Of a stretch of DNA of 28,255 bases, positions 1-26,218 are shown piece by piece (within the stretch, counting starts at the first letter, position 1; every line of letters begins with the position of its first letter). Source of the stretch: a virus; the IMG/VR virus record IMGVR_UViG_3300025141_013604, positions 1 to 28,255 of that record. The stretch is one strand, 5' to 3'. The notes below the pieces were generated by a model. The model was not told the origin of the DNA, did no database searches, and worked only from the letters and a program-made list of their open reading frames with translations. A program made the position numbers and the translations under genes.

Positions 1-801
1 TCAGGTGAAACTCCATCTCAACCACCACATCCACCATCACATACAGCCGGAATGGAAACTGCATTTGGAACCATAGGAACAAATTTATCTCAACATAGCG
101 GAAGACATGGCGGGACTTCAGGTGAAACTCCATCTCAACCACCACATCCAGAAACACATTCTGAATTAGATAGTAAAGTCGGTAGTTTTGGTAGTCCTCA
201 ATACGCTGGTGTGAGGTCTAGTCGAGGAATTGCATTTCCTTTCAACTATTCTCCTGAACTCGGAGGAATTCATGGATTGCGAAGCCCTCAACCACCACAT
301 TCAACGCAACATTCTGCATATGATGTTGGCGTTGGAAGTCGAGGCGTTCCTCAATCTGCTGGAATGAGGACTGATAGCCAAATTACATTTCCGGCAGATT
401 ATGATCCAAATGTTGGGGGAATTCACGGAGACCGAAATCCACAACCACATCAGACAGAAGCACATTCAGTATATGATGATAAAGTTGGAACATTTGGTCA
501 ACCTCAATTGAGAGAACGAAGATTAATATCAGGAACTGGTATTGAATTTCCAACAAATTATGAACCTGGTATCGGTGGACTGTTCGGCGGAACGTCAACA
601 ACAACTCCTTCCTTTCCAGTACATAGCGCTACATATTCTACATTTGATGATGGCGTGGGGAATTTTGGTAATCCTCAATACGCTGGCGCGAAGTCTGGTA
701 GAGGAATTGCATTTCCAACAGATTATGATCCAAATGTTGGGGGAATTCATGGGTTGAGAAGTCCACAGCCACCGCATTCAGAAGCACATTCTTTACTAGA
801 T
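1..801 (+). repeat. Tandem protein-coding repeats, family A
   Basis: An exact 33-nt direct repeat lies at 1-33 and 118-150 (offset 117 nt, a multiple of 3). After it come four imperfect units with period 153 nt: the QPPH-type motif starts at 136, 289, 442 and again at 766, and the PQ.AG-type motif at 196, 349, 502 and 673. The segment encoding DPNVGGIHG is almost identical at about 397-425 and 720-748. The array suggests expansion by unequal recombination within a virion protein. Confidence 0.8.
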
Positions 802-3800
802 AATTTACAAAATAGACTTGGATTTGGACCTGGTGTTATGAGTGATGCTCTATTTGGCCCGAGCGCTTTTGAAAACATGACATCAGAAGAACTTTCACCT
901 ATTGAGAATTTCGCATCTAATGTAGGTTCGAGAGGTTCTGGTATACCAATAGGCGGCGGAGATCCATCAGTAAGTCTTTATCCTGCAGTTACAGTTGCAT
1001 CTAATCAACAGACCTATACGGTCAATAGTCCATCCGGATTTAATTCTATAGTGGATGGTAAAATAAGATTTGATCGAATTCCTCTTGCTGGTGATGGAGA
1101 TCAAACTGCGCATATGAATGGATTATCCCCTAGCAATCTCGAAGTAGATTATTTCAGTGGAGGTCAAGGTGATCGTGGTGGTTTTTATAGCTTTCCTTTA
1201 TCGCCAGGAGGTAATTATTCCTACGCATCACTCCAGAATTATGCAATAGATTCATCTCCTACAATAGAAGGATTTACAAAAAATTTCAATACTTCAAAAT
1301 ATTTAGACAGTGCTGGAGTTATGATCGGAAGTGGATTGAGTGTTCTGAAATCAATGCGTTCTAATTATGGGTTGATATCATTAAATGTCGATACTGCAAC
1401 AAATCCATTTGGATTATTTTCAAATGGTGAAAACGCTAGATCTTATGATACTCATACAACAGCAGCACCAGCGACTGCCCCTAGCGCACCAGCTCTAGCA
1501 GCTCAAGCGGCTGCTAACGATCCGCCCCCAGCAGTAACCGGTTATGACTGGAGATCAGCGCATGGAACTCCAACATCAGTTTATCGAGGGCAGATATTAA
1601 ATTCAAATCCATATCAAGGAAGTAATCTCGATCCGATAGGACCTTTAGAAGGGTTGCTTAGTGTTAGCTCGCCATATAGTATTACTCGACAAGAGGATGA
1701 TGAAGGAGCTCCTAACACCGATTCAGTTGGTGCTGCCGGGAAAGTTAGAACATATGCTGTTGACTTTTTAACTGGAGGATATTCATATACTGGATTGGGA
1801 GATATTTATTCATTAACTGAACCAACTACAATTCCAGGATTTACAGTAAATTTTAATTCTTACGGATATACTTCAGATACTCTATTAGGAAGTTCAAAAT
1901 TTTTAAAACTTGCCCAATCAGGTGACGAGTTTGTCACAACAGCAAGGGCAAGCGGATTAGCACCGAAAAGTCAGGCAGATTCAACACCAGTATCTTCACA
2001 AGCAGGTTATACTGGAGTTAATTCTAAACTTGTTAATTTTTTCAATAGTGAAGGATATTCATATTCTTATCCCGACGGAAGCGCTGTAACCAGTACACCG
2101 ATAATTGATGGATTTACAGCAAATTTAACACATAAAGGTGAAACTCAATATATTAAAGACAACGTAGTAATATCAAGCGGTTTAGCACCAAAAGGCCAAA
2201 CCGACATAACTTCAGTAAAAGAAGAATATGGGAGTGGGAATATTGACATACATAAGATTAACTTTTTTAAGACTGAGGGGTCGTATTCATATCCTTATCC
2301 TATAGGAAGCGCCATGACCAGTTCACCGATACTTTCAGGATTTAAACCTAATTTAACTCATAAAGGAGAATCTCAATATAGTACTGTTAGTGGATTGGCC
2401 TCGAAAAATTGGTCTGGTGTAGTAGATGCAGAACAGCATGATGGTGAAACGATTAAAATACATTCAGGAATAGAAGATCAGTCTAAAGATTTTGATATAA
2501 ATTTTAATTTTGCTAATGATTCTCCACTTTCCAATACTCGAGGTTGGGAAAAGTATTATAATGCTGGTCATACGCCAAAGGGTGGTGGATATCACTATGG
2601 CCCGAATGTATCTCGATCTGGACTTAATATAAAATCTGCTCAATATACAAGTCGATCGCAGGTCGTGGGTTTATCTGACGGAGAACCGTATTACGTCACT
2701 CCAATCGGTGGTGATCATCGGTTTCTTTACAAGACAGGATGGTCATCTCGAGCTTTTCCGTTAGGAAGAGCGACTCAAGATGTCGATAGATTATTACATT
2801 GGCAGCTCAGCGGTGCGGGTTTGCTCAGCATGGCGTCACAATTTGTACAACAATATCTCAATCCACGGAATAAACGGAGATACAATCCACTCAGTCTCGG
2901 TAGTGGTATCTCTCTAGTCGCAGGCGTGAAATTCAGAATGGATCGTTCATATTTGTTTTCAAATGAAACATATGAAGATCAAGTTGAAACATCGGTTGAC
3001 CGAGCGGAAATGATGAATAATTGGGTTATAGGAAATGCTCAAGGTGTTGCGAATAAAGGATTAGGATTTTTTGCTGCAGGTGAAAATTGGAGAGGTGGCG
3101 TGATTCATCAAGTATTGGGAGATAATGCTAAAGGCGAAACAGATTTTTCTGCTGTAGCACCCGATCCACTCGATCCCACGATGTCGAATATCGGTAGAGC
3201 ATTGAGAACCGATCATCGTTCACCACTGATCGACGACGCACCAGCAAAAACAGCTGTTGGGGTACATGGTAAAGGAATGGGTAAAGGAAATGTTAATCCA
3301 CGAAGATTGTTTGCTACACCGATACCAGCCAGTGCTGGCGGAATAATGGTTACTGAAGGTATGCCGTTTTTAGGGGATATTGGCCCATATGAAAATATAC
3401 CGGATGTAACTGGAACAAGAGATACAAAACATCCATATAAACTCAATGGATTCGCAGAGCTTGGTTCCGATCCCATTACTACAACTCCTATTCAACAAGA
3501 TATAAAGGTTGTTCAGACTAATGAAGCTGCTGATAGTGAAGACTACGGCATGCCATTTTATATCAAAGATCTCCGCGACGGGAATTATATCGTCTTCAGA
3601 GCATATATCGACGGTATAGATGAAACCATCACACCTGGATGGGAATCTGAAAATTATATCGGGAGAAGTGAACCGGTTTATACATATGGACCGACGGAAA
3701 GAGCAATATCGATGAATTTAAAACTTTTTGCTCAAACGAAAGATGAATTAGATGCCATTTATCAAAAGCTTAATCGTGTGACTTCATTGTGCTATCCCGA

Positions 3801-4134
3801 ATATCAAAAAGATGTAAGGTTAGGAGATAAAACTAGAATGAAACCTCCGATAATACAATTTCGTCTCGGTGAGCTGTTCGGAAGTGGAACGAGAGATATG
3901 ACGGGATTCATCACTTCACTTACATATACATATGAAGATGATTCGCCATGGGAAACAGAACAGGGGAGAAGAGTACCGAAATACGTCACAGCAGCGTTGG
4001 GATTTCAAGTCATCCATGAAGAAGTTCCGAGTTTAGATTTCTCAAGGCATCAGGATCATGAACAAGCTTCTGATTTTAGATTTTATGGTATTAATGATAC
4101 AGTCGGCGTAGGAGTTCAAGCAGCAACACCATGA
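1..4134 (+). CDS. Large repeat-containing baseplate/tail structural protein (5' end cut by window)
   Basis: The reading frame is open from base 1, and the residues before the first ATG (position 52) repeat a segment found again at 118-150. The ATG at 52 is therefore internal and the gene begins outside the window. About 1377 residues are visible. The N-terminal ~270 residues hold four 51-57-residue repeats with the signatures QPPH, PQYAG, RGIAFP and DPNVGGIHG. Residues ~380-800 hold a second repeat family (NFF..EGYSYSYP, GF..NLTHKGE, SGLAPK). From residue ~1184 to the end there is a compact domain starting MPFYIKDLRDG, with VFRAYIDGI, a TERAISMNLKLFA strand and PPIIQFRLGELF, a pattern I associate with baseplate/tube-initiator proteins of myoviruses. 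It overlaps the next gene, a LysM baseplate protein, by 4 nt. The virion role is well supported by context; the exact T4 equivalent (gp48/gp54-like?) is inference. Confidence 0.7.
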   Translation, partial: SGETPSQPPHPPSHTAGMETAFGTIGTNLSQHSGRHGGTSGETPSQPPHPETHSELDSKVGSFGSPQYAGVRSSRGIAFPFNYSPELGGIHGLRSPQPPHSTQHSAYDVGVGSRGVPQSAGMRTDSQITFPADYDPNVGGIHGDRNPQPHQTEAHSVYDDKVGTFGQPQLRERRLISGTGIEFPTNYEPGIGGLFGGTSTTTPSFPVHSATYSTFDDGVGNFGNPQYAGAKSGRGIAFPTDYDPNVGGIHGLRSPQPPHSEAHSLLDNLQNRLGFGPGVMSDALFGPSAFENMTSEELSPIENFASNVGSRGSGIPIGGGDPSVSLYPAVTVASNQQTYTVNSPSGFNSIVDGKIRFDRIPLAGDGDQTAHMNGLSPSNLEVDYFSGGQGDRGGFYSFPLSPGGNYSYASLQNYAIDSSPTIEGFTKNFNTSKYLDSAGVMIGSGLSVLKSMRSNYGLISLNVDTATNPFGLFSNGENARSYDTHTTAAPATAPSAPALAAQAAANDPPPAVTGYDWRSAHGTPTSVYRGQILNSNPYQGSNLDPIGPLEGLLSVSSPYSITRQEDDEGAPNTDSVGAAGKVRTYAVDFLTGGYSYTGLGDIYSLTEPTTIPGFTVNFNSYGYTSDTLLGSSKFLKLAQSGDEFVTTARASGLAPKSQADSTPVSSQAGYTGVNSKLVNFFNSEGYSYSYPDGSAVTSTPIIDGFTANLTHKGETQYIKDNVVISSGLAPKGQTDITSVKEEYGSGNIDIHKINFFKTEGSYSYPYPIGSAMTSSPILSGFKPNLTHKGESQYSTVSGLASKNWSGVVDAEQHDGETIKIHSGIEDQSKDFDINFNFANDSPLSNTRGWEKYYNAGHTPKGGGYHYGPNVSRSGLNIKSAQYTSRSQVVGLSDGEPYYVTPIGGDHRFLYKTGWSSRAFPLGRATQDVDRLLHWQLSGAGLLSMASQFVQQYLNPRNKRRYNPLSLGSGISLVAGVKFRMDRSYLFSNETYEDQVETSVDRAEMMNNWVIGNAQGVANKGLGFFAAGENWRGGVIHQVLGDNAKGETDFSAVAPDPLDPTMSNIGRALRTDHRSPLIDDAPAKTAVGVHGKGMGKGNVNPRRLFATPIPASAGGIMVTEGMPFLGDIGPYENIPDVTGTRDTKHPYKLNGFAELGSDPITTTPIQQDIKVVQTNEAADSEDYGMPFYIKDLRDGNYIVFRAYIDGIDETITPGWESENYIGRSEPVYTYGPTERAISMNLKLFAQTKDELDAIYQKLNRVTSLCYPEYQKDVRLGDKTRMKPPIIQFRLGELFGSGTRDMTGFITSLTYTYEDDSPWETEQGRRVPKYVTAALGFQVIHEEVPSLDFSRHQDHEQASDFRFYGINDTVGVGVQAATP
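1141..2400 (+). repeat. Protein-coding repeats, family B (GYSYSYP / GF..NLTHKGE)
   Basis: Three to four diverged copies of an ~75-100-residue unit are visible. Each starts with a (V/I)(D/N)(Y/F)F-type strand, followed by a Gly/Tyr/Ser-rich turn, then a P.I.GF..N(F/L) segment. The two best copies start near 2026 and 2252 and share SAVTSTPI/SAMTSSPI and NLTHKGE. More diverged copies start near 1141 and 1756. This family is unrelated to family A in the same protein. Confidence 0.65.
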
Positions 4135-4473: not shown

Positions 4474-7400
4474 ATGGGATATTCAATCAGTAATAGAGTT
4501 TTCGGTTCTGATATACCGAAACCGATTAAACAAAAGTTAGCTCTCAGGCAAGCTCTTGCAAAAAGTCCTGATGTAAATGAAACAATAGATGCAATATTTG
4601 ATAATCCAGATCAATATGGTGACATACATCCACCACTTAATATTAATTTCGATGGAATAGCAGATCTCTCATCCCGTACACCTTTCGCTCGCATGTGGGT
4701 TGCTATTATGTTAGAATCTGACCAATCTACTGAACATGAATCAGCGAATTTTAATGAACCTGAACCTCTAATGCCTGATGAAGAAAGACAAAAAACAGAT
4801 TGGGCTGCACATAAAGTCGTATATTTCTGGAAAGATGGTAAGATATACTATCGAAAGTTTGCTAAATCGAAACAGAAAGTCTATATGGTTGGAAACAATA
4901 CACTCAATACATTACAAGTACAGCCCAATGAAACACTTACTGGAGATGATGTATTGATACCTGATGAACAACAAACTGATTCAAATGAATTTTTCGCTCC
5001 GCCGGCTGGCATTACTTCAGTTTCTTCAGAAACTGAAGGACCGTTAGGAGCGATTAAAAAAACAACGATAAATTTTATTATTCATAATTTTGCAGACTTC
5101 GAAACCATTTATAGTCGTTATTTTCTTCGGCATGGCGCACAGATATTTGTTGATTTTGGATGGGATTCTCAAATGGATGATCTATACAATCCTGAAGAGG
5201 CGTTGAAAAGGAATGAGCTTGAAGAGTTTGAAGATGATTTATTTGGCGAAGATGGAGCGGTTACGAAATCGTACGGTGACATGGATACGATTGTGGGTTA
5301 TGTAACGAATTATGATGCAAAAATTAAAGAAAACGGTAGTGTGGAATGTACTATTGATCTTTCGTCTAAAAATGCTGTTCTGCTTAATCATAATATAGGC
5401 GGTGATGATAGTTTGAGAAGAAGAATTAAAATGTCTTTAGATATTGAATCTTTACGGTTTGCTGCTAAATCATTTGGGGCGGAAGAATCAGAAAGCATGA
5501 TGGAGAAATCATCCCAGTGGCATTTATCAGCTGATAATAAGGAAAAATGGGAAGAATTCTTTTTTCAATGGGGAGAAAAATTTATTTCTTCTGACACAAT
5601 TATGCCACCTGCCAATGCGGTAGAAGTTGGCGTATATTATGGTGTAAAGGGAAAAGATAAAGCGTTATTCGTATCATGGGGATTTTTTGAAGATAAAATT
5701 TTAAATAATAATTTTGGATTTGGTGATGATGATAGTGAAAATTCTGGAGGGATATTAGATCAAAAAGATCTAAAGATGCAACCAAAATTTGATTCATCGC
5801 GCACGTTTATTAGATATAATGCGAATTTATTAAAAAGTCAACAGGCCAGTACAGAAATATCTAAACTGAAATGGCTTTATCCTGGAAATTGGGATTCCAC
5901 GTATAATACTAAGAGAAAAGGATTTTTGCAGGACAGAGCAGCAAAATATCCCTTTATATATACTCCTTCAGGGGGGGAGCCGACTGAATATACAATTACT
6001 AAATTTGATCAAGCGCTCGATCACATTCCACTAAGAGAACTTTTCATTTCAACAGAAATGATTAAATCTGCAATAGGTGCTGCTAAATCTACTTTAGAAT
6101 TTGTCAAAACTATTTGTAGTGATATTAACCATTCTACCAGAAATATTTTTGATTTCCAGATAGGTAACAATGCGGCGGCCAATCACAAAATATGTATTGT
6201 TGATAGAAATCTGGTAAATGATGAACATGGGAAAGATAAAAAAGATTTTATTGAAAATTTATTCACATTTCATCCTATGTCACCTAATACTATTGTGAAG
6301 AATTATGATATATCATTCACAACTCCACAGGGTAATATGCAAAATATGATAGCGCTTCAGACAGCAGGGCCAGGAGGTCAATTATTCGCTGTTGATGGTA
6401 TGACAGATCGACTCATAGCAAATGAAGCGGTTTTAGGACAAACGAGTGAGACAGATGAAGTTAGTGGAAAATTGATAAGACGTGCGGCTACATATCTACC
6501 CCGAACAGGCGGTTATAGATTCGATAGATATAAAAAAGAAAATAATCCTGGAGGTGTTGCATTAGACTTTTATAGTGATGCCGAACTTTTTAGTGATAAA
6601 AATACTCAGACAGATTCATTATTAAATTCTTTTAATTTAAGTAAGGCTGGCTTAAATTATCCCGATGAAGCAAAAGTTGAAGAAAGTAAGACAGAATCAC
6701 CGGATACTGATACTGAAACATCTGTAGAATTGGAAAGGCTGCGAGGTAAGGCAGTTGCTACTGATTTATCTGATTATTATTTAATGCTTGCGAGGAAAGA
6801 AAATTTTGAAAGTCATATATCGTCATTGCTTTTTTCAACATTGACATTAGAAATTTATGGCATATCAGCAATTGCTCCTGGAGATATTTTTGCTGTAGAT
6901 TATTTACCAAAGAAATATAGAGATCAAGTTTATTTTCAAGTTCAGTCGGTCTCACATGATATCAGTACATCGACTTGGACAACGACTTTAGAAACAACGA
7001 TGAGATTTCATAAAGGATGGAAGAAGGATTATCGAATATATGAAGAAATTTCAGGTGTGATATTAGCAAAGAATTTTTTAACAACAATAGGATTATCTTT
7101 TTGGTATGGTACTGGCGAGGATCTTTACCCATGGCCTGGCGGGAAGTCAGATATAGATAAACTGCCGGGACGTGATGCGCACGACCTCGGTCAAAAATTT
7201 CATATAGATAATTTATTATCATATATTCAAGATCTGGAAGTAATAAAATTAGATACTACTATTGAATATCTCGAATATGCTTTTAGATTTACTGCGCAGA
7301 AGAAAGGAACAGTTTATATTCCAGGGTCGAAGCAGCATGATTGTTCTGAAACTGAAACGAGCCTAGTATACTCATCAGGTCTGCAAGTAATGGTCCCACA

Positions 7401-7617
7401 GAACACTACTACTCATAAACGACAACCAGCAGGTTATCCATATGCGGGTGCTTTTGATTGGAAAGCAGATCTTGTGAAAGATAATAAATATATACTAGTA
7501 GTTCATAAAGATCACATAGCAAATGAGGGTAGGGCTTGGTCAATATTACCTGCAGGTGGTCAGTATGATATAAATCTTTGGGATATCGATATATATGGCG
7601 AATGTGAAGAAATCTAA
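4474..7617 (+). CDS. Large baseplate hub-like structural protein
   Basis: A 1047-residue protein directly after the LysM gene. The region at about residues 180-235 (ITSVSSETEGPLGAIKKTT, then a long aliphatic strand, YFLRHGAQIFVDFGW) matches the form of myovirus hub proteins, in which a flat beta layer is followed by a PG..(V/L)FV.(W/F)GW motif. Residues ~790-850 (LTLEIYG, PGDIFAVDYLP, FQVQSVSHDISTSTWTT) resemble the second tube-like domain of gp27/gpD-type hubs. A C-terminal extension of ~190 residues ends in a beta-rich module with two cysteines (HDCSETET, YGECEEI) and could be a membrane- or host-facing addition. The ATG at 4474 is preceded by CCAGGTT, a weak ribosome site. The structural role is likely; hub identity is inference. 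Confidence 0.55.
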   Translation: MGYSISNRVFGSDIPKPIKQKLALRQALAKSPDVNETIDAIFDNPDQYGDIHPPLNINFDGIADLSSRTPFARMWVAIMLESDQSTEHESANFNEPEPLMPDEERQKTDWAAHKVVYFWKDGKIYYRKFAKSKQKVYMVGNNTLNTLQVQPNETLTGDDVLIPDEQQTDSNEFFAPPAGITSVSSETEGPLGAIKKTTINFIIHNFADFETIYSRYFLRHGAQIFVDFGWDSQMDDLYNPEEALKRNELEEFEDDLFGEDGAVTKSYGDMDTIVGYVTNYDAKIKENGSVECTIDLSSKNAVLLNHNIGGDDSLRRRIKMSLDIESLRFAAKSFGAEESESMMEKSSQWHLSADNKEKWEEFFFQWGEKFISSDTIMPPANAVEVGVYYGVKGKDKALFVSWGFFEDKILNNNFGFGDDDSENSGGILDQKDLKMQPKFDSSRTFIRYNANLLKSQQASTEISKLKWLYPGNWDSTYNTKRKGFLQDRAAKYPFIYTPSGGEPTEYTITKFDQALDHIPLRELFISTEMIKSAIGAAKSTLEFVKTICSDINHSTRNIFDFQIGNNAAANHKICIVDRNLVNDEHGKDKKDFIENLFTFHPMSPNTIVKNYDISFTTPQGNMQNMIALQTAGPGGQLFAVDGMTDRLIANEAVLGQTSETDEVSGKLIRRAATYLPRTGGYRFDRYKKENNPGGVALDFYSDAELFSDKNTQTDSLLNSFNLSKAGLNYPDEAKVEESKTESPDTDTETSVELERLRGKAVATDLSDYYLMLARKENFESHISSLLFSTLTLEIYGISAIAPGDIFAVDYLPKKYRDQVYFQVQSVSHDISTSTWTTTLETTMRFHKGWKKDYRIYEEISGVILAKNFLTTIGLSFWYGTGEDLYPWPGGKSDIDKLPGRDAHDLGQKFHIDNLLSYIQDLEVIKLDTTIEYLEYAFRFTAQKKGTVYIPGSKQHDCSETETSLVYSSGLQVMVPQNTTTHKRQPAGYPYAGAFDWKADLVKDNKYILVVHKDHIANEGRAWSILPAGGQYDINLWDIDIYGECEEI

Positions 7618-7680: not shown

Positions 7681-8961
7681 ATGAATCATTATATCGTCAT
7701 CCCGATATTTTCTGATAATCAGCTTCACCCCTTCCATCAGGATAATGGTCTGTCGTTACTCTATACTAAACAACTCGATGGTGAATCTAAAATCCTTACA
7801 ATAGATCATCTCGATGCACTTGATGTAGATGATTTTAGTTTTTTAAACGATTCGATCATCCTCACACCGAATAAAAAATATTTACTTAAAATCTGTCCTG
7901 ATGCCCATGTCATTTATGATATGAATTTATTAAATCATTATCTCTATAACAAACCTCTCGATCTCGATTCCATTAGAGTCAACGCAATTGATAATCTGAA
8001 TAGTAAATATTATAAAATGAAAGAGATCAATACCATCATTCCGATGTATAAACATCTGCAGTATTGTGATGAAGTGGCGGAAATCATCACTATACTATGG
8101 GGTGAGAAAGAAAAAATCAATTGGGATTCTTATCAGCGGTATAACAACGAAGCCATTATGGCTTTTTATTCGATTGAAAGGGAAGGTGTCGGGATAGCGG
8201 ATAATGCAGTGGAGATATTTGACAACCGTGTTGAACGACATATCTCTAACAGAAGACTCTATACTGATTATTTCCTCCACACAACAGCAGGTCGACCGAG
8301 TAATAGTTTTGGTTCTGTTAATTTCGCTGCGTTAGATGAACCGAAACGTCGAGCTATAGTGCCGGAAAACGATATGTTATTTGAATTCGATCATGATGCT
8401 TATCACTTGAGATTAATCGCAGATATAGTGGATTATGAATTTCCGAATGGGCCCGCACATGAACATTTGGCTAAATTCTATGGTAGCGAGAATTATCAAG
8501 AGAGTAAAGCTAAATCTTTCCAATATCTCTATGGTGGGATTCCACCTGATGTAGTGCAGATGAATCCATTTTTTTCAAGTGTTGATAATTTATCACGTAT
8601 TCTATGGGAACAATTTAAGGAACAAAAATACATCGAAACTCATATTTATAAAAGAAGAATGATGGCGTGTAATTTGCAAGATATGAATCGAAATAAGTTA
8701 TTGAACTACCTAATCCAGGCTACTGAGACAGAACGTAATATTAAGACGATAATTAAAATTCAAAGATATTTATATAAGAAGAAGACTTCGCTAATTTTAT
8801 ATAATTACGATAGTTTTTTATTTGATTATTGTAAAGAAGATGGATTGGAATTATTAAAAGGAATTATGAAAATATTAGAAAGAAATAATTTTTTAACTAA
8901 AATCAAGATGGGGATGGATTTTGGTCAAATGGATGTGCTCGATAGAGAAAAATTGTTGTGA
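7681..8961 (+). CDS. Minimal family-A (Pol I-like) DNA polymerase domain protein
   Basis: A 426-residue protein carrying the family-A palm and fingers signatures in order. TTAGRPSN (202-208) matches the TGR.SS segment. FDHDAYHLRLIA (236-247) matches motif A, with Asp237 in the catalytic position. KAKSFQYLYGG (276-286) matches motif B, K-x3-F-x3-YG. LNYLIQATETE (341-351) fits the helix before motif C, and LYNYDSFLFD (373-382) replaces the HDE of motif C while keeping the catalytic Asp377. The thumb is very short: about 30 residues separate IEREGVGI from the TAGR motif. No 3'-5' exonuclease motifs are visible in the first 160 residues. Motif A has His where Pol I has the Glu710 steric gate, and the motif B arginine is missing. 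The fold is well supported; activity and role are uncertain. The genome also encodes a complete family-B polymerase. Confidence 0.7.
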   Translation: MNHYIVIPIFSDNQLHPFHQDNGLSLLYTKQLDGESKILTIDHLDALDVDDFSFLNDSIILTPNKKYLLKICPDAHVIYDMNLLNHYLYNKPLDLDSIRVNAIDNLNSKYYKMKEINTIIPMYKHLQYCDEVAEIITILWGEKEKINWDSYQRYNNEAIMAFYSIEREGVGIADNAVEIFDNRVERHISNRRLYTDYFLHTTAGRPSNSFGSVNFAALDEPKRRAIVPENDMLFEFDHDAYHLRLIADIVDYEFPNGPAHEHLAKFYGSENYQESKAKSFQYLYGGIPPDVVQMNPFFSSVDNLSRILWEQFKEQKYIETHIYKRRMMACNLQDMNRNKLLNYLIQATETERNIKTIIKIQRYLYKKKTSLILYNYDSFLFDYCKEDGLELLKGIMKILERNNFLTKIKMGMDFGQMDVLDREKLL

Positions 8962-15569: not shown

Positions 15570-16920
15570 GTTAGCACAATTCGGACATAGCTTTCAGATC
15601 AAAAGCATTGTTTGTTTTATGACTAAGCCTAATTTTATAGAACAAGTATTCGATATATTGGATGAAAAGCACTATGATGGAGATGCAATGCAGTGGATTG
15701 TAAAACATTGTAAGGATTATTTTACTGAATATAATAAACCCATTACTCTTGATGCATTTAAAGTTAAGTCAAATGAGATTCAAAATGATATTTTAAAAAC
15801 AACAATTGTCGAAACATTAAGAGAAGTTTATCAACATATAGAATCAGCTGATTTAGATTTTGTACAAGATCAAACTTTAGATTTTTTTAAAAATCAAGCA
15901 TTGAAAAAAGCAATTGTTCAATCTGTAGATATTTTAGAAAAAAATGGTGACTTTGAAGATATCAAACAATTGATTGATAAAGCCATGCAGGCTGGAATGG
16001 AACGTGATATAGGACACAAATATCTTGAAATGATAGAAGAAAGATATAGCGAAATGGCGCGCATAACCTTAGAAACTCCATGGGAAGTTATAAATGAAAT
16101 AATGCAAGGTGGATTAGGGACTGGAGAACTGGGCGTAATTGTCGCTCCGGCCGGTGTGGGTAAAACATGGGCGCTAGCGGCAATTGGAACAGAAGCTATT
16201 AAACAAGGTAAAACTGTTGTCCATATTACTCTTGAGCTCAATGAAGCATATGTAGGGTTGAGATATGATAGTATTTTTACAAATATAGCAAATCAAAATT
16301 TAAAGTATCATAAAGAAGATGTAGAGAAAAAACTAGCAACGTTGCCAGGAAATTTAATTATTAAATATTTTCCAACAAAAACAGCATCTGTTCATACTGT
16401 TGCGGCTCAATTACAACGAATAAAAATGTTAGAAAAGAATATCGATTTAGTTATAATCGATTATGCGGATATCATGAGAGATGTTCAATCAGCTAAAGAA
16501 GTGAGGCATCAGTTAGGTAATATTTATGAAGATCTTCGTGGTCTTGCAGGTGAACTTGAAATACCGGTATGGACGGCATCTCAAGCAAACCGTAGTTCCT
16601 TAGATGAAGATGTGATTGAAGCACAAAAAATTTCAGAAAGTTATATTAAAATCATGACAGCAGATTTTGTTATGTCATTATCGCGGAAGGTAGAAGATAA
16701 AATTGCTAATACGGGAAGGTTTCATGTGATTAAAAATCGATTTGGGCCTGACGGAATGACATATCCATCAAAAGTCAATACTAATACAGGAAAAATTGAA
16801 ATTTATAATAGTGAATCTTTAGGTGGTCAAGAACAGCAATATAAAATAAATCATAGAGATAATTTAACAAAAAAAATGTTATCGAGTAAATATAACGATT
16901 TAATGGGAGATGAAATATAA
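15559..16920 (+). CDS. 41: DnaB-type replicative helicase (gp41-like)
   Basis: A 453-residue hexameric 5'-3' helicase, similar in length to T4 gp41 (475). The N-terminal ~150 residues form the helical primase-contact domain. The RecA-like motor follows: VIVAPAGVGKTWALA holds Walker A (196-203), VHITLELNEAYVGLRYDSI is the DnaB motif with E and R, and IDLVIIDYADIM the Walker B (Asp301). VWTASQANRSS is motif 4 with the sensor, and FHVIKNRFGPDG carries the arginine-finger strand. The start at 15559 overlaps the exonuclease by 11 nt; the next Met (15619) would remove part of the conserved FGHSFQIKSIVCF segment. A primase (gp61) is not in the window. The gene ends in a TAATG overlap with the reductase. 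Confidence 0.92.
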   Translation: MTNRLAQFGHSFQIKSIVCFMTKPNFIEQVFDILDEKHYDGDAMQWIVKHCKDYFTEYNKPITLDAFKVKSNEIQNDILKTTIVETLREVYQHIESADLDFVQDQTLDFFKNQALKKAIVQSVDILEKNGDFEDIKQLIDKAMQAGMERDIGHKYLEMIEERYSEMARITLETPWEVINEIMQGGLGTGELGVIVAPAGVGKTWALAAIGTEAIKQGKTVVHITLELNEAYVGLRYDSIFTNIANQNLKYHKEDVEKKLATLPGNLIIKYFPTKTASVHTVAAQLQRIKMLEKNIDLVIIDYADIMRDVQSAKEVRHQLGNIYEDLRGLAGELEIPVWTASQANRSSLDEDVIEAQKISESYIKIMTADFVMSLSRKVEDKIANTGRFHVIKNRFGPDGMTYPSKVNTNTGKIEIYNSESLGGQEQQYKINHRDNLTKKMLSSKYNDLMGDEI

Positions 16921-18887
16921 TGGAAACATTTAAACTATCAGAAAATTTTATCAATAAATATAAAAGAAGGAAAGCACCCTTTGGTTTTAATGGTTTAGGT
17001 GAGTTAGTTTATATGAGAACTTATTCTCGCATTAAAGATAATGGTAAAAATGAAATGTGGTGGGAAACTTGTCAAAGAGTAGTCGAGGGAACATATTCTA
17101 TGCAAAAAAACTGGATTGATCATCACCAGTTAGGATGGAATGCATGGCAAGCTCAACGATCAGCACAAGAGATGTACGAGAGAATATTTTATATGAAATT
17201 TTTACCTCCAGGAAGAGGTTTATGGGCAATGGGTACGAAGCTCACTAATGAAAAAGGGTTGTATGCTACATTAAATAATTGCGCGTTTGTCTCCACAGAA
17301 ACGATTAAAGATGATATAGCGAAACCTTTTACATTTCTTATGGACGCTTCGATGTTAGGTGTTGGGGTAGGGTTCGACGTCAAAGGAGCAGGTCAGATAA
17401 CGGTAAAGGGGCCTAATAAAACACGCGGTCTTGATCTATATATAATTCCTGATACTAGAGAAGGATGGATCGAAAGTGTTAAATTATTGATTGAGAGTTA
17501 TTTTCTTGGTATTCAAGAACTTGAATTTGACTATACACAAGTTAGACCGGCAGGAGAACCTATAAAGGGTTTTGGTGGTATAACGAGCGGCCCTGAACCG
17601 TTAGAAGAATCTCATAACTTAATTAGAAAAATTCTTGATAGAGAAGTAGGAAATCCCATTTCAGCAACTGCAATTGTCGATATAATGAATATATTGGGTA
17701 AATGCGTTGTGAGTGGAAATGTTAGAAGAACAGCAGAGATTGTATTCGGAGAACCAGACGATGAAGAATATCTTGACTTAAAAAATTACAAGGTTAATCC
17801 TGAGAGAGAGACTTACGGGTGGACTTCTAATAATAGCGTATTCGCGAAGTTAGGCATGGATTATGGCCCTGTATGCGAGAGAATTGCAATAAATGGTGAA
17901 CCGGGATTTGCGTGGCTTGAAAATATGAAACATTATGGTAGAATGAGCGATCTTAAAAATGGCCATGATATTAGAGCGGCTGGAGGTAATCCGTGTTTAG
18001 AACAAACATTAGAAAGTTATGAATTGTGTTGTTTAGTCGAGACATTTCCTAATAATCATGATAATTTAGAAGATTACTTTAAAACATTAAAATATGCGTA
18101 CCTTTATGCAAAAACTGTGACGTTAGGTAAAACACACTGGCCAGAAACTAATCGCGTGATGTTGAGAAATCGTAGAATAGGTTGTTCGGTTAGTGGTATT
18201 GCTCAATTTATTAGTAATAAAGGATTGAATGAATTAAAAGATTGGCTTAATGGAGGATATCGAGCGATTCAAGAGTATGATAAATTGTATTCGGAATGGT
18301 TTGCAGTGCCGAGAAGCATAAAAACAACATCTGTTAAACCATCCGGGACTGTTTCGCTATTGGCAGGCGCGACTCCAGGAGTTCATCATCCCGAAAGTCG
18401 ATTTTATATTCGGCGGATGAGATTATCTAACCATTCGCCACTCATCGAACCATTAAAAAACGCTGGGTATGTAATTGAACCAGCATTTGGAAGTAAAAAA
18501 ACTACTGTTGTGGTTGAAGTACCAGTCGATGCAGGTGATGGCGTTAGAACAGCAAAAGATTTAACTATGTGGGAACAGCTTTCTTTAGCTGCATTTATGC
18601 AAAGGTATTGGGCGGATAATCAAGTCAGTTGTACGGTTACGTTTGATCCTAAAACAGAAGGTGACCAGTTGCAATTTGCTTTAGATTATTTTCAATATCA
18701 ATTGAAAGGAATTTCCTTTCTCCCGAGATCTGAAACAGGTGCATATAGGCAAATGCCATACGAAGAAATTACTGAAGATCAATATAACGAAATGTGTAGT
18801 AAACTTCAAAAATTAAATTTTCGAAAAGTAGAAGGAAATGAAGCAGTAGTGGATAAATTTTGTAATACTGATCATTGCGAAATATAA
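16920..18887 (+). CDS. nrdJ: Adenosylcobalamin-dependent (class II) ribonucleotide reductase, monomeric type
   Basis: A 655-residue enzyme that reduces ribonucleotides to deoxyribonucleotides with a B12-generated thiyl radical. Key residues are visible: C121 (NNCAFVST) and C370 or C371 (ELCCLVE) as the active-site disulfide pair, C359 in GGNPCLE as the thiyl-radical cysteine, N357 and E361 beside it, and C648-x4-C653 at the extreme C-terminus as the shuttle cysteines. LMDASMLGVGVGFDV and SVKPSGTVSLLAGATPGVHH are typical of the Lactobacillus leichmannii-type monomeric triphosphate reductase (~739 residues); this one is shorter, and no separate small subunit is seen. It is oxygen-independent but needs host cobalamin. 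It lies between helicase and polymerase, feeding dNTPs at the fork; the thioredoxin-like protein at 11328 is a candidate reductant. Confidence 0.9.
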   Translation: METFKLSENFINKYKRRKAPFGFNGLGELVYMRTYSRIKDNGKNEMWWETCQRVVEGTYSMQKNWIDHHQLGWNAWQAQRSAQEMYERIFYMKFLPPGRGLWAMGTKLTNEKGLYATLNNCAFVSTETIKDDIAKPFTFLMDASMLGVGVGFDVKGAGQITVKGPNKTRGLDLYIIPDTREGWIESVKLLIESYFLGIQELEFDYTQVRPAGEPIKGFGGITSGPEPLEESHNLIRKILDREVGNPISATAIVDIMNILGKCVVSGNVRRTAEIVFGEPDDEEYLDLKNYKVNPERETYGWTSNNSVFAKLGMDYGPVCERIAINGEPGFAWLENMKHYGRMSDLKNGHDIRAAGGNPCLEQTLESYELCCLVETFPNNHDNLEDYFKTLKYAYLYAKTVTLGKTHWPETNRVMLRNRRIGCSVSGIAQFISNKGLNELKDWLNGGYRAIQEYDKLYSEWFAVPRSIKTTSVKPSGTVSLLAGATPGVHHPESRFYIRRMRLSNHSPLIEPLKNAGYVIEPAFGSKKTTVVVEVPVDAGDGVRTAKDLTMWEQLSLAAFMQRYWADNQVSCTVTFDPKTEGDQLQFALDYFQYQLKGISFLPRSETGAYRQMPYEEITEDQYNEMCSKLQKLNFRKVEGNEAVVDKFCNTDHCEI

Positions 18888-21493: not shown

Positions 21494-22021
21494 ATGAATA
21501 CAGTCACTTTGAAAAATAGATCGCCAGTATCATACAAATATGTTAGTACGAAAGAATATGTAGATAAGTTTCCATGCGCATACAGACAATGGAGAGCAGA
21601 TAGTCATTGTAATGTAATTCATGGATATTGTTTTAGCATGAGATTCTTTTTTGGTACAGATCATTTAGATGTTAGAAATTGGGTCGCTGATTATGGCGGG
21701 CTTAGAGAACTTAAACAGCTTCTTGATGATCAATTCGACCATACATTATTAGTAGCTGAAGATGAACCAGAAATGGATCTTTATAAAGAATTAGAAAAAC
21801 GAGGTTTAGCAAGACTTACTATATTGCCAAATCTGGGATGTGAAGCCATAGCCGATCAATTATACAAGTATGTAAATGGGGTGTTCATTCCAGAGGGATG
21901 GGGTCCAGGAGAAGCAGAAAGACTTTGGTGTTTTAGAGTAGAAGTACGTGAAACACAAACTAATATGGCTTATCGTCAAGGACATAGAGAATGGAACGAA
22001 GATTTATTTGAAGATGTATAA
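21494..22021 (+). CDS. queD: QueD-like 6-carboxytetrahydropterin synthase, variant metal site
   Basis: A 175-residue enzyme of the PTPS/QueD family that turns dihydroneopterin triphosphate into 6-carboxy-tetrahydropterin, the second step to 7-deazaguanines. It belongs to the phage-type branch: FPCAYRQWRADSHCNVIHGY (26-45), WVADYGGLRELKQLL (63-77), QFDHTLL with D82/H83 as catalytic pair, LGCEAIADQLY, and VEVRET with E152. C39 matches the catalytic cysteine. Two of the three zinc histidines of E. coli QueD (H16, H33) align with Tyr30 and Tyr45. The second change (HGY) occurs in the phage branch generally, as I recall it, but Tyr30 in place of His (CAHRQW) looks unusual; His38 may help bind metal. 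The ribosome site AGGAG lies 7 nt before the ATG. It overlaps queE by 8 nt. Confidence 0.85.
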   Translation: MNTVTLKNRSPVSYKYVSTKEYVDKFPCAYRQWRADSHCNVIHGYCFSMRFFFGTDHLDVRNWVADYGGLRELKQLLDDQFDHTLLVAEDEPEMDLYKELEKRGLARLTILPNLGCEAIADQLYKYVNGVFIPEGWGPGEAERLWCFRVEVRETQTNMAYRQGHREWNEDLFEDV

Positions 22022-22766
22022 AACACTTCCAATAATAGAACTGTATAGGTGTATACAATCAGAAGGTAGTAGGTTTGGCATACCAACCATTGCTGTAAGG
22101 ACAACTGGATGTACACATCGATGCTATTTCGGTGAAGGTGGATGGTGTGATTCTTGGTACACGAGTATCCATCCCGAAAAAGGTAGATATACCTTTAATG
22201 ATGTGGCGCGGATATATGATATAAATCCACATATTAAGGAAATGATGTTGACCGGCGGTTCACCAAGTATGCACCCAGAGTTAGTTAATCAGTTGATGAA
22301 GTTTGCTCGTAAACGAGGTATTTTTGTCACTATAGAGACGGAAGGTTCTCATGCGATACAAACTGATATACCGATTGATTTGATCAGTTTAAGTCCTAAG
22401 TTTAGTAATTCTGTTCCTAAAATTGGAGTCGAAACTCCAAAAGGTACGATAGTAGATGAGAAATTTGTTGCCTTGCATAATAGATATAGGTTAAATTACG
22501 ACGTGATTGAAGAACTGATATCATACCATGCCGATTATCATTTCAAACCAGTTTGGGATGGAACCGAAGAGAATATACAAGAAATCGAAACATTTAGATT
22601 ACGGTTGAGTATACCGAAAGAAAAAACATACATCATGCCTGCAGGTGATTGTAGGGAAACATTAATTGAAATGTATCCAAAAGTTTTTGAACTTTGCGCC
22701 GACCGCGGTTATAGAATGACCGGTAGAGATCACATCATAGCATTCAACACAGAAAGAGAGGTTTAA
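22014..22766 (+). CDS. queE: QueE-like radical SAM 7-carboxy-7-deazaguanine synthase
   Basis: A 250-residue radical SAM enzyme that converts carboxy-tetrahydropterin to 7-carboxy-7-deazaguanine (CDG). The frame opens upstream at 21948, but ATG 22014 gives the natural start MYKTLPIIELYRCIQSEG, matching the F.(T/S).QGEG segment of QueE. The 4Fe-4S cysteines are C33, C37 and C45 in GCTHRCYFGEGGWCDSWYT: CX3CX7C, five residues longer than the CX3CX2C of E. coli QueE. A widened loop of this kind is, to my knowledge, usual in phage QueE. MMLTGGSPSMHP is the SAM-binding glycine motif, and VTIETEGSH and LISLSPK are typical QueE strands. Its TAA is followed directly by the TTG of the next gene in the same frame. 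Confidence 0.88.
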   Translation: MYKTLPIIELYRCIQSEGSRFGIPTIAVRTTGCTHRCYFGEGGWCDSWYTSIHPEKGRYTFNDVARIYDINPHIKEMMLTGGSPSMHPELVNQLMKFARKRGIFVTIETEGSHAIQTDIPIDLISLSPKFSNSVPKIGVETPKGTIVDEKFVALHNRYRLNYDVIEELISYHADYHFKPVWDGTEENIQEIETFRLRLSIPKEKTYIMPAGDCRETLIEMYPKVFELCADRGYRMTGRDHIIAFNTEREV

Positions 22767-23525
22767 TTGAAAATAGCATTCATTCCAACAATCCATACAT
22801 TGGAAACTGATAACACCGATTATCATTTAGCACTTACACATTTGGTATTGAAATATCCTGAATATGCAGAATTTTATAAAAAGAAGAGAGAACAGGGTGA
22901 TTTTGTCATACTCGATAATTCCTTAATTGAATTGGGTAAGGCTGCGAGTTTGCATAAAGTACTAGAAGCTGCCAAGATAATCAATCCTTCAGAAATAGTC
23001 TTACCAGATGTTTTTAAAGATTGTGAAAAAACGTTAATAGCAGTCGATGATGCGCTCGAGCAATTTCGCAATATGACTATTGATCAAGATTTTCAATTAC
23101 AAGCAGTTGCGCACGGCAGAAATAAAACAGAATGGAAAAAATGTTGGAATAAATTGAGTAAAAATCCATATATCGATTGCATTGCAATTCCTAAAGTGAC
23201 ATCAGAAATTTTCGGTTCGCGGAAGTGGGCAATTGATTATGCTCTAAATCAGAATCCAAATGATAAACAAATCCATTTATTAGGAATGTGGTCAACGGCT
23301 CGAGAATTAAAAATGTATCCATGCGAACAACAGAAACTCATTAGAGGTATCGACACTAGCATTGCAATTCATTGCGCAATTGATTTTAGGTCTTTTTATC
23401 GTAATGAAATGAAAAAACCTGATTGGAAAATCGATTTAGAATATGAATATGAAATAAATGAAGGTGAGCTAAAAGCACTACAGTCCAACCAAATATGGAT
23501 GCAGGAGATGTTGATATGCGAATAG
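22767..23525 (+). CDS. dpdA: DpdA-like DNA 7-deazaguanine transglycosylase (TGT family)
   Basis: A 252-residue TIM-barrel protein of the tRNA-guanine transglycosylase superfamily. It starts at TTG 22767, preceded by GAGAGG with 5-nt spacing; the next in-frame Met is residue 103, so TTG must be used. Recognisable segments are FIPTIHTLE at the N-terminus, GDFVILDNSLIELGKA (44-59, equivalent to the LDNGA.E segment), EIVLPDVFKD (76-85), QAVAHGRNKTEW, and IHLLGMW and RGIDTS (169-198). Phage DpdA proteins exchange guanine in DNA for a preformed 7-deazaguanine; Asp50 and Asp196 are candidate catalytic residues by position only. It is shorter than bacterial DpdA (~400) and lacks the zinc cysteines of tRNA TGT. 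Its place between queE and folE makes DNA the likely substrate rather than tRNA. Confidence 0.82.
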   Translation: MKIAFIPTIHTLETDNTDYHLALTHLVLKYPEYAEFYKKKREQGDFVILDNSLIELGKAASLHKVLEAAKIINPSEIVLPDVFKDCEKTLIAVDDALEQFRNMTIDQDFQLQAVAHGRNKTEWKKCWNKLSKNPYIDCIAIPKVTSEIFGSRKWAIDYALNQNPNDKQIHLLGMWSTARELKMYPCEQQKLIRGIDTSIAIHCAIDFRSFYRNEMKKPDWKIDLEYEYEINEGELKALQSNQIWMQEMLICE

Positions 23526-24106
23526 CTTTATCAGGCGCGCAAGGAACGGGTAAAACTACGTTGATAAATGAGTTGAAAAATGGATCGTTTTTACCCCATT
23601 ATACCTTTTATGATGAAGTTGTGAGAAATTTGGTAAAGCGAACAGGTATTTCGATAAATAGGAAAGCTGATGATTATTCTCAGACAGCTATTACGAATGA
23701 ACAAGTGAGACTCGCATCAGAGACGGCATTCAATACACCGAATGCGTTTTTCGATAGATGTATTGTCGACTCTCATGCATTTACAATATTTGATTATGTG
23801 AGAGAACAGATTTCAAAAAAAGTATATATGTATAGTAGCGAAATGCTTAAAATGGTTTTTACTTATTTTCCCTACGATATGGTTATCTATATTCCCCCTA
23901 AAATACAATTAGTAGAAGATGGGGTTCGAGATACTGATATCAAATATAGAAATAGAATTGATAAGCTTATGACTAACGTATTGAATTACAATTCAATAAA
24001 ATCATCATCAACAAAAATTTATACTTTAACTGAAATTTCAGTTCAAGGCAGAATAAAAGAAATACTTAACAATATGGAGGAAGTTAATGAAATTAAAAGC
24101 AGTTAA
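23516..24106 (+). CDS. P-loop kinase/ATPase-like protein (AAA_28/NadR-kinase-like)
   Basis: A 196-residue P-loop protein. The frame is open from 23495, but ATG 23516, with AGGAG 8 nt upstream, begins exactly at the first strand, MRIALSGAQGTGKTT, which contains Walker A (7-15). FYDEVVRNL and FDRCIVDSHAFTIFDY give the acid/base strand and a DxxxxD-like element; MVIYIPP is the strand that, in nucleotide kinases, precedes the lid. The fold resembles the ATPase/kinase family including NadR C-terminal kinases and phage deoxynucleotide kinases. It lies between dpdA and folE (10-nt and 20-nt overlaps), so a role in handling pathway nucleotides is plausible but not shown. I do not recognise its substrate. 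Confidence 0.65.
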   Translation: MRIALSGAQGTGKTTLINELKNGSFLPHYTFYDEVVRNLVKRTGISINRKADDYSQTAITNEQVRLASETAFNTPNAFFDRCIVDSHAFTIFDYVREQISKKVYMYSSEMLKMVFTYFPYDMVIYIPPKIQLVEDGVRDTDIKYRNRIDKLMTNVLNYNSIKSSSTKIYTLTEISVQGRIKEILNNMEEVNEIKSS

Positions 24107-24746
24107 TGGAAATATACCTAAAACGTTAGAAGAACGAAATGAAATTATTAAAACCGCTACATCGGCTTATGAGAAATTTTTAGATGCATTGGGATTTGAT
24201 TGGCGTAATGATCCCAATAGTGTAGATACGCCGCATAGAGTTGCAAAGTCATACGTTAATGATTTGATAACGGGATGTTATGATAAAGCTCCCAAGATAA
24301 CCGCATTTGATAATACAGATCAATATGGCGGAATTATATTCCAGGGCAATATTACAGTTAATTCTTTATGTTCACATCATCATTTACCATTTGTTGGATT
24401 TGCTCATGTAGCGTATATTCCGACTAAAACAGGAAAGATTATTGGATTATCGAAAATGAATCGAATTGTGGAACATTATGCGCGCCGACCACAAGTACAG
24501 GAAAATCTTACTGAGCAAATACATAATCATTTAGATAATACTATTGGTGATAGTCTTGGTGTTGCAGTTATGGTTGAAGCTACGCATTTTTGCGCTAAGA
24601 TTCGTGGCGTTAAACATAATTATGGGTTGATGAAAACATCGAGATTATCCGGAGTGTTTCTCGATCCGTCAGATCATCCTGAAGGAAAAGACGCGAGGCA
24701 AGAATTTTATGATTTTATTAAAACAATGAGCAGAGGAGAAATATAA
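24087..24746 (+). CDS. folE: GTP cyclohydrolase I (FolE)
   Basis: A 219-residue enzyme opening GTP to dihydroneopterin triphosphate, the entry step to both folate and 7-deazaguanines; E. coli FolE is 222 residues. TPHRVAKSYV (48-57), VNSLCSHHHLPFVG (91-104) with zinc ligands C95 and H98, KIIGLSKMNRIVEHYARRPQ (117-136), ENLTEQI, and THFCAKIRGVKH with the third zinc ligand C169 are all intact, as is MKTSRLSGVF, so this copy looks fully functional. A phage copy raises flux through the pathway independently of host regulation. GGAGG lies 6 nt before the ATG, inside the end of the kinase-like gene. Confidence 0.95.
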   Translation: MKLKAVNGNIPKTLEERNEIIKTATSAYEKFLDALGFDWRNDPNSVDTPHRVAKSYVNDLITGCYDKAPKITAFDNTDQYGGIIFQGNITVNSLCSHHHLPFVGFAHVAYIPTKTGKIIGLSKMNRIVEHYARRPQVQENLTEQIHNHLDNTIGDSLGVAVMVEATHFCAKIRGVKHNYGLMKTSRLSGVFLDPSDHPEGKDARQEFYDFIKTMSRGEI

Positions 24747-24747
24747 A

Positions 24748-25542
24748 ATGGGAAAAGCAAAACAAGCAGTATTATCACTTAGTGGTGGTATGGATAGTTC
24801 AACGGTTCTATTGCGACTATTAGCAGATGGATATATAGTTACAGCGTTGAGCTTTGATTATGGACAGAAACATAGAGTTGAACTTGATAGAGCGAAATCA
24901 CTTATCTGGTATCTCGCAGATAATCATTTGGATGTTACCCATCAAGTAATAAAATTCAGTGGATTGAGTCAGTTATTAAATTCACATTTAGTTGAAGGCG
25001 GTGACGATATCCCAGAAGGTCATTATGAAGAAGCCAACATGGTCGATACAGTTGTGCCGAATCGGAATAAAATGATGAATTCAATCGTTCAAGCAGTAGC
25101 GTTATCGATAGCGACAAAACTCGATACTGATGTCGTGATAGCGATGGGTATCCATGCAGGCGATCATGCAATTTATCCAGACTGTCGGCAAGAGTTTCGC
25201 GATGCTGATTTTGAAGCATTTAAGATCGGAAATTGGGATTCAGAGAAAGTTTCAGTATCGACACCATATCTCGACACTGATAAATATGGTATTCTTCAAG
25301 ACGGCTTAAATTGTTGTAAGCTCCTTCATCTAGATTTTGATGAAGTGTATAAAAGAACAAATACTTCATATAAGCCTACAGCAGACGGATATAGTGATTT
25401 TAAGAGTGCATCAAGTGTTGAACGCATTGAAGCTTTTATAAAATTAGGGCGCCCTGATCCCGTACAATATGCAGACAAGTCTGGACCTGTTCCTTATGAT
25501 GTTGCTAGAGCGCACGTTCAACGACTTCTTGCAAATTATTAA
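24748..25542 (+). CDS. queC: QueC-like 7-deazaguanine ligase/synthase lacking the zinc cysteines
   Basis: A 264-residue PP-loop enzyme. QueC uses two ATP to turn CDG plus ammonia into ADG and then preQ0. The PP-loop SLSGGMDSS (10-18), SFDYGQKHRVEL (35-46), VDTVVPNRNKMMNSIVQ (99-114) and GIHAGDHAIYPDCRQEF (134-150) are all present. In standard QueC the C-terminal region reads TCY...CGxCxxCxxR, a zinc site. Here the matching region is TSYKPTADGY (206-215) followed by SDFKSASSVER (216-226), in which every cysteine is Ser or another residue; the terminal AFIKLGRPDP is kept. The protein is full length with an intact nucleotide site, so this looks like an evolved variant rather than decay. Whether it stops at ADG or makes preQ0 cannot be told from sequence. 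Confidence 0.88.
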   Translation: MGKAKQAVLSLSGGMDSSTVLLRLLADGYIVTALSFDYGQKHRVELDRAKSLIWYLADNHLDVTHQVIKFSGLSQLLNSHLVEGGDDIPEGHYEEANMVDTVVPNRNKMMNSIVQAVALSIATKLDTDVVIAMGIHAGDHAIYPDCRQEFRDADFEAFKIGNWDSEKVSVSTPYLDTDKYGILQDGLNCCKLLHLDFDEVYKRTNTSYKPTADGYSDFKSASSVERIEAFIKLGRPDPVQYADKSGPVPYDVARAHVQRLLANY

Positions 25543-25556
25543 TAGGAGAGTAATTA

Positions 25557-25724
25557 ATGCGTAGATTTGATATCATGCCCGATCCTGAAAGACATTTCTG
25601 GGTCAGTATATTGAAAAGTATGTTACGAATAGGAGGATTCGTTAGTTTGATTTATTCTACTATTGGTGGCGTAGCGATGTTAGTATTAGCAGAGATTTTA
25701 GGTATAGCGGAGGAAATGGTCTGA
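25557..25724 (+). CDS. Small membrane protein
   Basis: A 55-residue protein: MRRFDIMPDPERHFWVSILK, then a hydrophobic segment from about residue 25 to 51 (IGGFVSLIYSTIGGVAMLVL...) long enough to span a membrane once, then an acidic end AEEMV. AGGAG lies 8 nt before the ATG at 25557, and the stop overlaps the next ATG (ATGA). The positive N-terminus suggests it is retained inside. Position at the end of the deazaguanine genes and before dUTPase gives no clear function; small membrane proteins of phages often affect the host envelope or superinfection. Confidence 0.65.
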   Translation: MRRFDIMPDPERHFWVSILKSMLRIGGFVSLIYSTIGGVAMLVLAEILGIAEEMV

Positions 25725-26218
25725 TGTTTATAAATCCAAAACAGGCTATAGAAAAGGGTTGGATTCGTAATGTAAAAGACCGATGGATTCAACCTAACGC
25801 AGTTGATATTTCTGCAGATAAGCTATTTGAAATGAATTCAAGAACTTTATTTCGTATCGATGAAGATTCAAAAATGCATCGAGAAAGAACAGAAGTTCCC
25901 ATTGTAAGTGATTATTGGATTTTAGATTCAGGCACCTATGATTTTGCAAGCAATGTGTATGTTGAAATACCAGAAGGAATAGTAGGTTGGGTAGTGGTGA
26001 GAAGTAGTTTTAATCGTAATGGAGTATATTTAGGTTCGGGGTTATATGACAGTGGGTATAAAGGCCCGATATGTGGAACTTTATATGTTCACGGTGCTAC
26101 TGGATTGAAATGCGGAACACCTGTAGGTCAATTTATTTTAGCACAAAGTGATAGCCATGGAGTATATGCTGGTGGCTATAATGTAGCAGAAGGTAAATTA
26201 CCAAGTCATATAAAATAA
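25724..26218 (+). CDS. dut: dUTPase-like enzyme (dUTPase/dCTP deaminase superfamily)
   Basis: A 164-residue trimeric-type enzyme. IQPNAVDISAD (22-32) is the N-terminal (Q/L)P...D(L/I) motif, VVRSSFNRNGV (91-101) the RSS motif binding phosphate, GLYDSGYKGPI (106-116) motif III with Asp109 as catalytic base, and VGQFIL (134-139) the subunit-interface strand. The glutamate that dCTP deaminases have in the strand after this motif (TLE) is missing here (GTLYVHGA), so dUTP pyrophosphatase is more likely than deaminase. It would keep dUTP low and yield dUMP for dTTP synthesis. No glycine-rich C-terminal motif V is visible. GGAGG lies 10 nt before the ATG. Confidence 0.78.
   Translation: MFINPKQAIEKGWIRNVKDRWIQPNAVDISADKLFEMNSRTLFRIDEDSKMHRERTEVPIVSDYWILDSGTYDFASNVYVEIPEGIVGWVVVRSSFNRNGVYLGSGLYDSGYKGPICGTLYVHGATGLKCGTPVGQFILAQSDSHGVYAGGYNVAEGKLPSHIK

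Follow-up and report, generated by a model that had tools for sequence, protein, structure and literature searches.

The window analyzed here, that is, the whole 28,255-base IMG/VR virus record, which is probably a fragment of an aquatic phage, contains six contiguous, mostly overlapping forward ORFs at positions 21494-25542, flanked by the PolB and clamp genes. The original prediction had placed a six-gene 7-deazaguanine operon in this interval; its location, strand and contiguity are borne out by the ORFs, and the six gene identities agree with the family matches or, for the DpdA-like protein, with the evidence from fold and profile comparisons. The genes of the operon and one downstream neighbor are the following.

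21494..22021, forward strand: QueD-like 6-carboxytetrahydropterin synthase of the 'HGY' type (phrog_2389, 2.5e-34; PF01242 (PTPS), 2.5e-13)
22014..22766, forward strand: QueE 7-carboxy-7-deazaguanine synthase, radical SAM (phrog_2076, 1.4e-47; CTHRCYFGEGGWC motif)
22767..23525, forward strand: putative DpdA-like base-exchange transglycosylase with a predicted TGT fold (AF2 model, Foldseek, family profile, and alignments)
23516..24106, forward strand: P-loop nucleoside/nucleotide kinase-like protein (AAA_28/dNK) (AAA_28, 1.9e-17; dNK, 5e-8; phrog_2107, 8e-26)
24087..24746, forward strand: FolE GTP cyclohydrolase I (PF01227, 2.8e-46; canonical zinc-type residues)
24748..25542, forward strand: QueC without the Cx8CxxCxxC zinc site (PF06508, 1.9e-37; motif scan, alignments, and AF2 model)
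25724..26218, forward strand: dCTP deaminase/dUTPase-like protein (PF22769, 1e-11)

The most likely start of QueE is the ATG at 22014, which gives an 8-nt overlap with QueD, rather than the GTG at 21948, and the most likely start of the kinase gene is the ATG at 23516; the DpdA-like gene has a TTG start at 22767, immediately 3' of the QueE stop codon. The dCTP deaminase-like gene, located between QueC and the clamp gene, does not clearly belong to the operon. Given that the operon genes, when compared with their relatives, show purifying selection (dN/dS of 0.07-0.27), the operon is not a chance occurrence. No QueF or PurN-like ORF was found within the window; because the record is a virus fragment, the absence of QueF, which the original prediction had pointed out, stands for these 28,255 bases and not as a statement on the whole phage. 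The lack of an operonic QueF is nevertheless meaningful because the junctions between the DpdA-like, kinase, and FolE genes are tight and are common to the window and the related IMG/VR contig L105. Elsewhere in the window, a B12-dependent (class II) ribonucleotide reductase is encoded at 16920-18887, directly upstream of PolB, and two ORFs look structural, namely the first one (1-4134), which contains proline-rich repeats of the type GGIHGLRSPQPPHS within positions 1-700, and the ORF at 4474-7617, for which no match was found in the phage collection.

On its own, the DpdA-like protein has no sequence match in Pfam, NCBIfam or PDB, and the only PHROGs that it matches are of 'unknown function' (phrog_20335/19058). 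When the AF2 model built from a 51-member alignment (pLDDT 89) was compared with PDB using Foldseek, the top 50 matches were all tRNA-guanine transglycosylases (best 6.5e-7; TMq of about 0.6-0.7); the best viral fold match is a protein of Cellulophaga phiST. The best PDB sequence match of the family profile is 7UI4, a bacterial DNA-guanine transglycosylase (E 1.8e-4), and the homologs of the protein include CPT_0056 of CP220 and an immuto protein that carries a DpdA annotation. The HLLG motif and three aspartates (D50, D81, and D196) do not vary across the 51-member alignment; equated by motif, these aspartates would be the base-binding and nucleophilic residues of TGT. At position 116, 96% of the first set have Gln, but the proteins of the window, L105, Youna2, and BSTP5 have His, as does 7UI4 at the matching position. 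A His at position 196 of the 9g DpdA has been described as conserved (PMC6884629), and these two histidines may occupy the same position. The relatives of the DpdA-like protein are remote (about 22-56% identity), the protein itself is short (252 aa), and its family profile did not match the DpdA1 sequences (9g/Rosebush type) that were tried, TA17A and Sonali_87. A DpdA3 subfamily has reportedly been named in a 2023 paper, and the homologs in CP220 and phiST make membership of the window protein in it a possible lead. The profile, alignment, and model comparisons support the assignment of this putative enzyme to a remote family of the DpdA/TGT superfamily, and the profile match to 7UI4 is consistent with DNA as its target. 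The neighborhoods of DpdA also contain a basic protein with an AT-hook-like RGRPPK tail (family 11; L179:2934-3461 and 52 others), which is encoded within four genes of DpdA at 47 of the 109 loci, has no Pfam match, and is absent from the window.

The QueC family is defined by the SGGxDS, YxQxHxxE, VPxRN, and YPDC motifs, a conserved Lys (K165 in Escherichia coli), an essential Tyr located within the zinc region (Y189), and a Cx8CxxCxxC zinc site, which is treated as a hallmark needed for function (Libby et al., 2026, PMC13329287). In the window QueC, the motif scan recovered SGGMDS at 12, YGQKHRVE at 38, VPNRN at 103, and YPDC at 143, and residues K179 and Y208, which are invariant in the zinc-site-less clade, align with the Lys and Tyr. 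The scan yielded no match to Cx8CxxCxxC, and the four Cys columns of the alignment are occupied by S207, D217, S220, and S223. The best fold matches of the AF2 model (pLDDT 88) are the QueC structures 2PG3 and 3BL5. As judged from these residues, the window QueC appears to lack zinc; other ligands might bind metal. An identity as QatC or Cap9, which belong to protein deazaguanylation, was considered and rejected: QatC has motifs of its own in place of those of QueC, which the window protein keeps, and Cap9 is a short form with a CD-NTase neighbor, whereas the window protein consists of 264 aa and its operon encodes no CD-NTase. No published zinc-site-less QueC was found in the literature searched.

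The four cysteines (Cys4) are missing in 73 of the 77 QueC sequences of the first set, the window included, and kept in the other 4. This loss occurs in a great many aquatic phages as well as in some archaea and bacteria from the sea. Relatives of the window QueC are encoded in at least 599 viral stretches, with the zinc sites examined for part of these; Cys4 is kept in QueC of CP220, Sonali, TA17A, KVP40, Seurat, phiSM, Youna2, and BSTP5. In the QueC tree, all zinc-site-less members fall on one side of a single branch (support 99/96), and the L105 protein, which keeps Cys4, branches just outside this clade, the simplest reading being that Cys4 was lost once. The cellular contigs with Cys4-less QueC belong to Thalassarchaeaceae/Poseidoniales, where the gene sits in FolE-QueE-QueC-QueD clusters, Pirellulaceae (Planctomycetes), Neomarinimicrobiota, Cysteiniphilum, and Facilibium. 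Some of the top matches from MAGs (L184-L189, L198, and L199) are close to phage sequences; several have DpdA, and these contigs might come from phages. In all 14 cellular genomes searched, for which completeness was not reported, no other full-length QueC accompanies the zinc-site-less gene, other matches being partial and weak; a full-length TGT is encoded in 13 of these 14 genomes and a QueF above the cut-off in 6 of the 9 genomes checked. Among these six are three proteobacterial genomes (Thiotrichales/Fastidiosibacteraceae, including Cysteiniphilum and Facilibium), each of which also encodes TGT along with a single PTPS and a single zinc-site-less QueC. If true, the presence of a Cys4-less protein as the sole full-length QueC in whole genomes would imply that the zinc site is unnecessary for the chemistry, and the annotation of QueC genes would change.

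QueF also accompanies zinc-site-less QueC in phages, the two genes being located near each other in the loci L103, L014, L038, L017, L031, and L033; immuto carries both genes as well, with QueC located elsewhere. Both QueF proteins inspected over their full length, from immuto and L103, retain SNCxVTxQPDW as the catalytic motif. Given that the co-occurring QueF uses preQ0, and that no other full-length QueC is present in the 14 cellular genomes, 13 of them with TGT, the zinc-site-less QueC very probably still makes this compound, which could also be supplied by a host QueC. Many relatives with the window-type QueC encode, near FolE, a PRA-PH/MazG-like pyrophosphohydrolase (L005:6228-6752 and about 23 other loci) that might act on nucleotide pools.

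The window QueD also departs from the canonical metal site. According to the alignment, the catalytic-type residues C39, D82/H83, and E117 are kept, and among the three canonical zinc-binding histidines, one is kept and two are replaced by Y30 and Y45; H38 might substitute for a lost zinc His. This HGY type is common to phiST, phiSM, immuto, Cysteiniphilum, and others, and the aligned cellular QueD of Cysteiniphilum and Thiotrichales are also of the HGY type. FolE of the window keeps the canonical metal residues C95, H98, and C169. A FolE2 (GCYH-IB; PF02649, 9e-70 in L110) is encoded instead of FolE in the relatives L106-L113, where the surroundings of DpdA include a dNMP kinase and a His-rich protein of 118 aa that has no Pfam match; no QueC was seen near DpdA in these loci. 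We consider the chances evenly balanced that a zinc-independent QueC and a QueD without two of its histidines, joined by FolE2 in L106-L113, constitute a low-zinc 7-deazaguanine pathway of aquatic phages and marine archaea and bacteria, in which Cys4 is dispensable.

The window and its sister, the IMG/VR contig L103, have QueD, QueE, and QueC in the same order and share 94, 89, and 87% identity in these three proteins, respectively, but only 30% in DpdA and the kinase; at that spot, unlike the window, L103 contains a DpdA-PurN-kinase-QueF block, with a PurN-like (formyltransferase) gene and QueF inserted. With L105, the window shares the DpdA-kinase-FolE-QueC order and 56, 63, and 74% identity in DpdA, the kinase, and FolE, respectively, but 48% in QueC; QueE is 88-89% identical in L103 and L105. 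The DNA matches agree with the protein identities to both loci, and the DpdA tree separates the window/L105 type from the L103 type. Within a conserved precursor operon, the DpdA-kinase pair forms a cassette that can be exchanged, and the final base probably depends on the cassette type: a preQ1-derived base, perhaps formylated, is expected for L103, and an end of the pathway at preQ0 for the window. The link between the PurN-like gene and a formylated base reportedly comes from one paper. A correspondence between the polymerase type and the DpdA type was considered and dropped, given that in L104 a Gln-type DpdA is combined with PolB DNA resembling that of the window. The exchange of a DpdA-kinase block for a DpdA-PurN-kinase-QueF block between operons that are alike in other respects amounts to a natural experiment on the change of DNA base identity. 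This swap, the QueF and formyltransferase genes of the sister contig, the loss of the QueC zinc site, and the remoteness of the DpdA family had been overlooked in the original prediction.

PurN accompanies the AAA_28/dNK-like kinase at 9 loci but not in the window, L105, or CP220, and small P-loop genes of other kinds are found next to DpdA in Bacillus/Weizmannia phages and in phiST/MA9V-3. In CP220, the DpdA homolog has an HD/P-loop protein on one side and an AAA_28 kinase on the other (L006:5811-6842 and 7762-8304). A universal pairing of DpdA with a kinase was rejected, most DpdA loci having no kinase nearby: a small P-loop gene is located within 2.5 kb of DpdA at 12 of 73 loci, as detected with a pattern that is blind to the GKD-type Walker A, and kinase families 38 and 57 are present at 19 of 109 DpdA loci in the wider set. 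Scans found no further relatives of the window kinase, the L105 kinase or the L105 DpdA. A role of the kinase in salvage or in nucleotide supply is a guess.

From the genes, motifs, fold, gene order, and comparative pattern, we infer the following activities. FolE, QueD, QueE, and QueC would convert GTP to the free base preQ0, with the window QueC performing two ATP-dependent steps, from CDG to ADG and on to preQ0, without the Cys4 zinc site, and the DpdA-like transglycosylase would swap preQ0 for guanine in the phage DNA. The product would be expected to be mainly dPreQ0, which would block guanine-reading restriction enzymes, the altered guanine probably serving as armor against bacterial defenses. 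Such a preQ0 operon, with DpdA-like insertion into DNA, a zinc-site-less QueC, and an exchangeable DpdA-kinase cassette, appears to be the probable reading of this locus. In Rosebush and CAjan, dPreQ0 was the outcome of minimal FolE/QueD/QueE/QueC/DpdA sets, and dADG is present in Campylobacter phages (PMC6884629). Because Campylobacter phages carry dADG and CP220 encodes a Cys4 QueC together with a DpdA of the same broad family as the window protein, the identity of the base does not follow from the gene content by itself. The gene identities and the general role, the insertion of a 7-deazaguanine into DNA as originally predicted, are supported; the modification itself, its being dPreQ0 rather than dADG, and resistance to restriction are predicted features.

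Three other readings were considered. First, the operon might end at ADG, with the zinc-site-less QueC performing the first amidation only and dADG being inserted into DNA. The loss of the zinc site along with the retention of the ATP and CDG motifs is compatible with this possibility, as are the dADG of Campylobacter phages and the related DpdA of CP220; however, the QueC of CP220 itself keeps Cys4, so that the loss does not track dADG, and zinc-site-less QueC co-occurs, in both phages and cells, with QueF, which needs preQ0. An ADG endpoint therefore appears unlikely, and zinc loss causing dADG, as a simple rule, is ruled out by the Cys4 of CP220. Second, modification might precede replication, with the DpdA-like enzyme exchanging the base of a deoxynucleotide and the kinase next to it phosphorylating the resulting compound to the modified dNTP used by the polymerase. 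A P-loop kinase-like gene adjoins DpdA or lies at most three genes from it in the window, L105, immuto, CP220, L103, Youna2/BSTP, and phiST/MA9V-3, L106-L113 have the dNMP kinase, and for Campylobacter phages a route through modified dGTP has been proposed in the past. However, most DpdA loci have no such kinase nearby, phage replication regions often contain kinases, the kinase families differ between the loci, with those of Youna2/BSTP lacking a kinase Pfam match, and the prevailing view is that DpdA modifies DNA that has already been replicated, so this route seems quite improbable. Third, it is very unlikely that the genes boost host queuosine or another tRNA modification, with the DpdA-like protein acting on tRNA as its TGT fold and the occurrence of cellular homologs of the window QueC in genomes with a tRNA-type TGT might suggest, given that, among proteins of solved structure, the one nearest in sequence is the bacterial DNA enzyme 7UI4, that the DpdA-like form is short (252 aa), and that the operon lies in the replication region, with relatives adjoining DNA replication genes in many phages.

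Among the known systems, the preQ0 operon favored here is most readily compared with the phage preQ0 group 2 (CAjan and Rosebush; Hutinet et al., 2019, PMC6884629), with which it shares FolE, QueD, QueE, and QueC along with DpdA and the lack of an amidotransferase; it differs from this group in that the profile of the window DpdA family revealed no relationship to the DpdA1 sequences of the Rosebush type that were compared, QueC has no zinc site, and a kinase is inserted. Flavobacterium phage immuto (NC_055915) encodes a QueC that is 57% identical to that of the window and is also zinc-site-less, and, as in the window, a DpdA of the same broad family and an AAA_28-type kinase; unlike the window, immuto has QueF and a formyltransferase, and its Gln-type DpdA is about 24% identical to that of the window. 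L105 differs from the window in its Cys4 QueC and in a QueD of the canonical HGH type. With the canonical QueC of cluster 1 (E. coli and the Bacillus subtilis 3BL5; PMC13329287), the window QueC shares the substrate, ATP, and Tyr motifs and the fold but not the Cx8CxxCxxC site. The pathway is an ordinary one and the operon is of a known kind, with a remote DpdA and a notable, widespread QueC variant.
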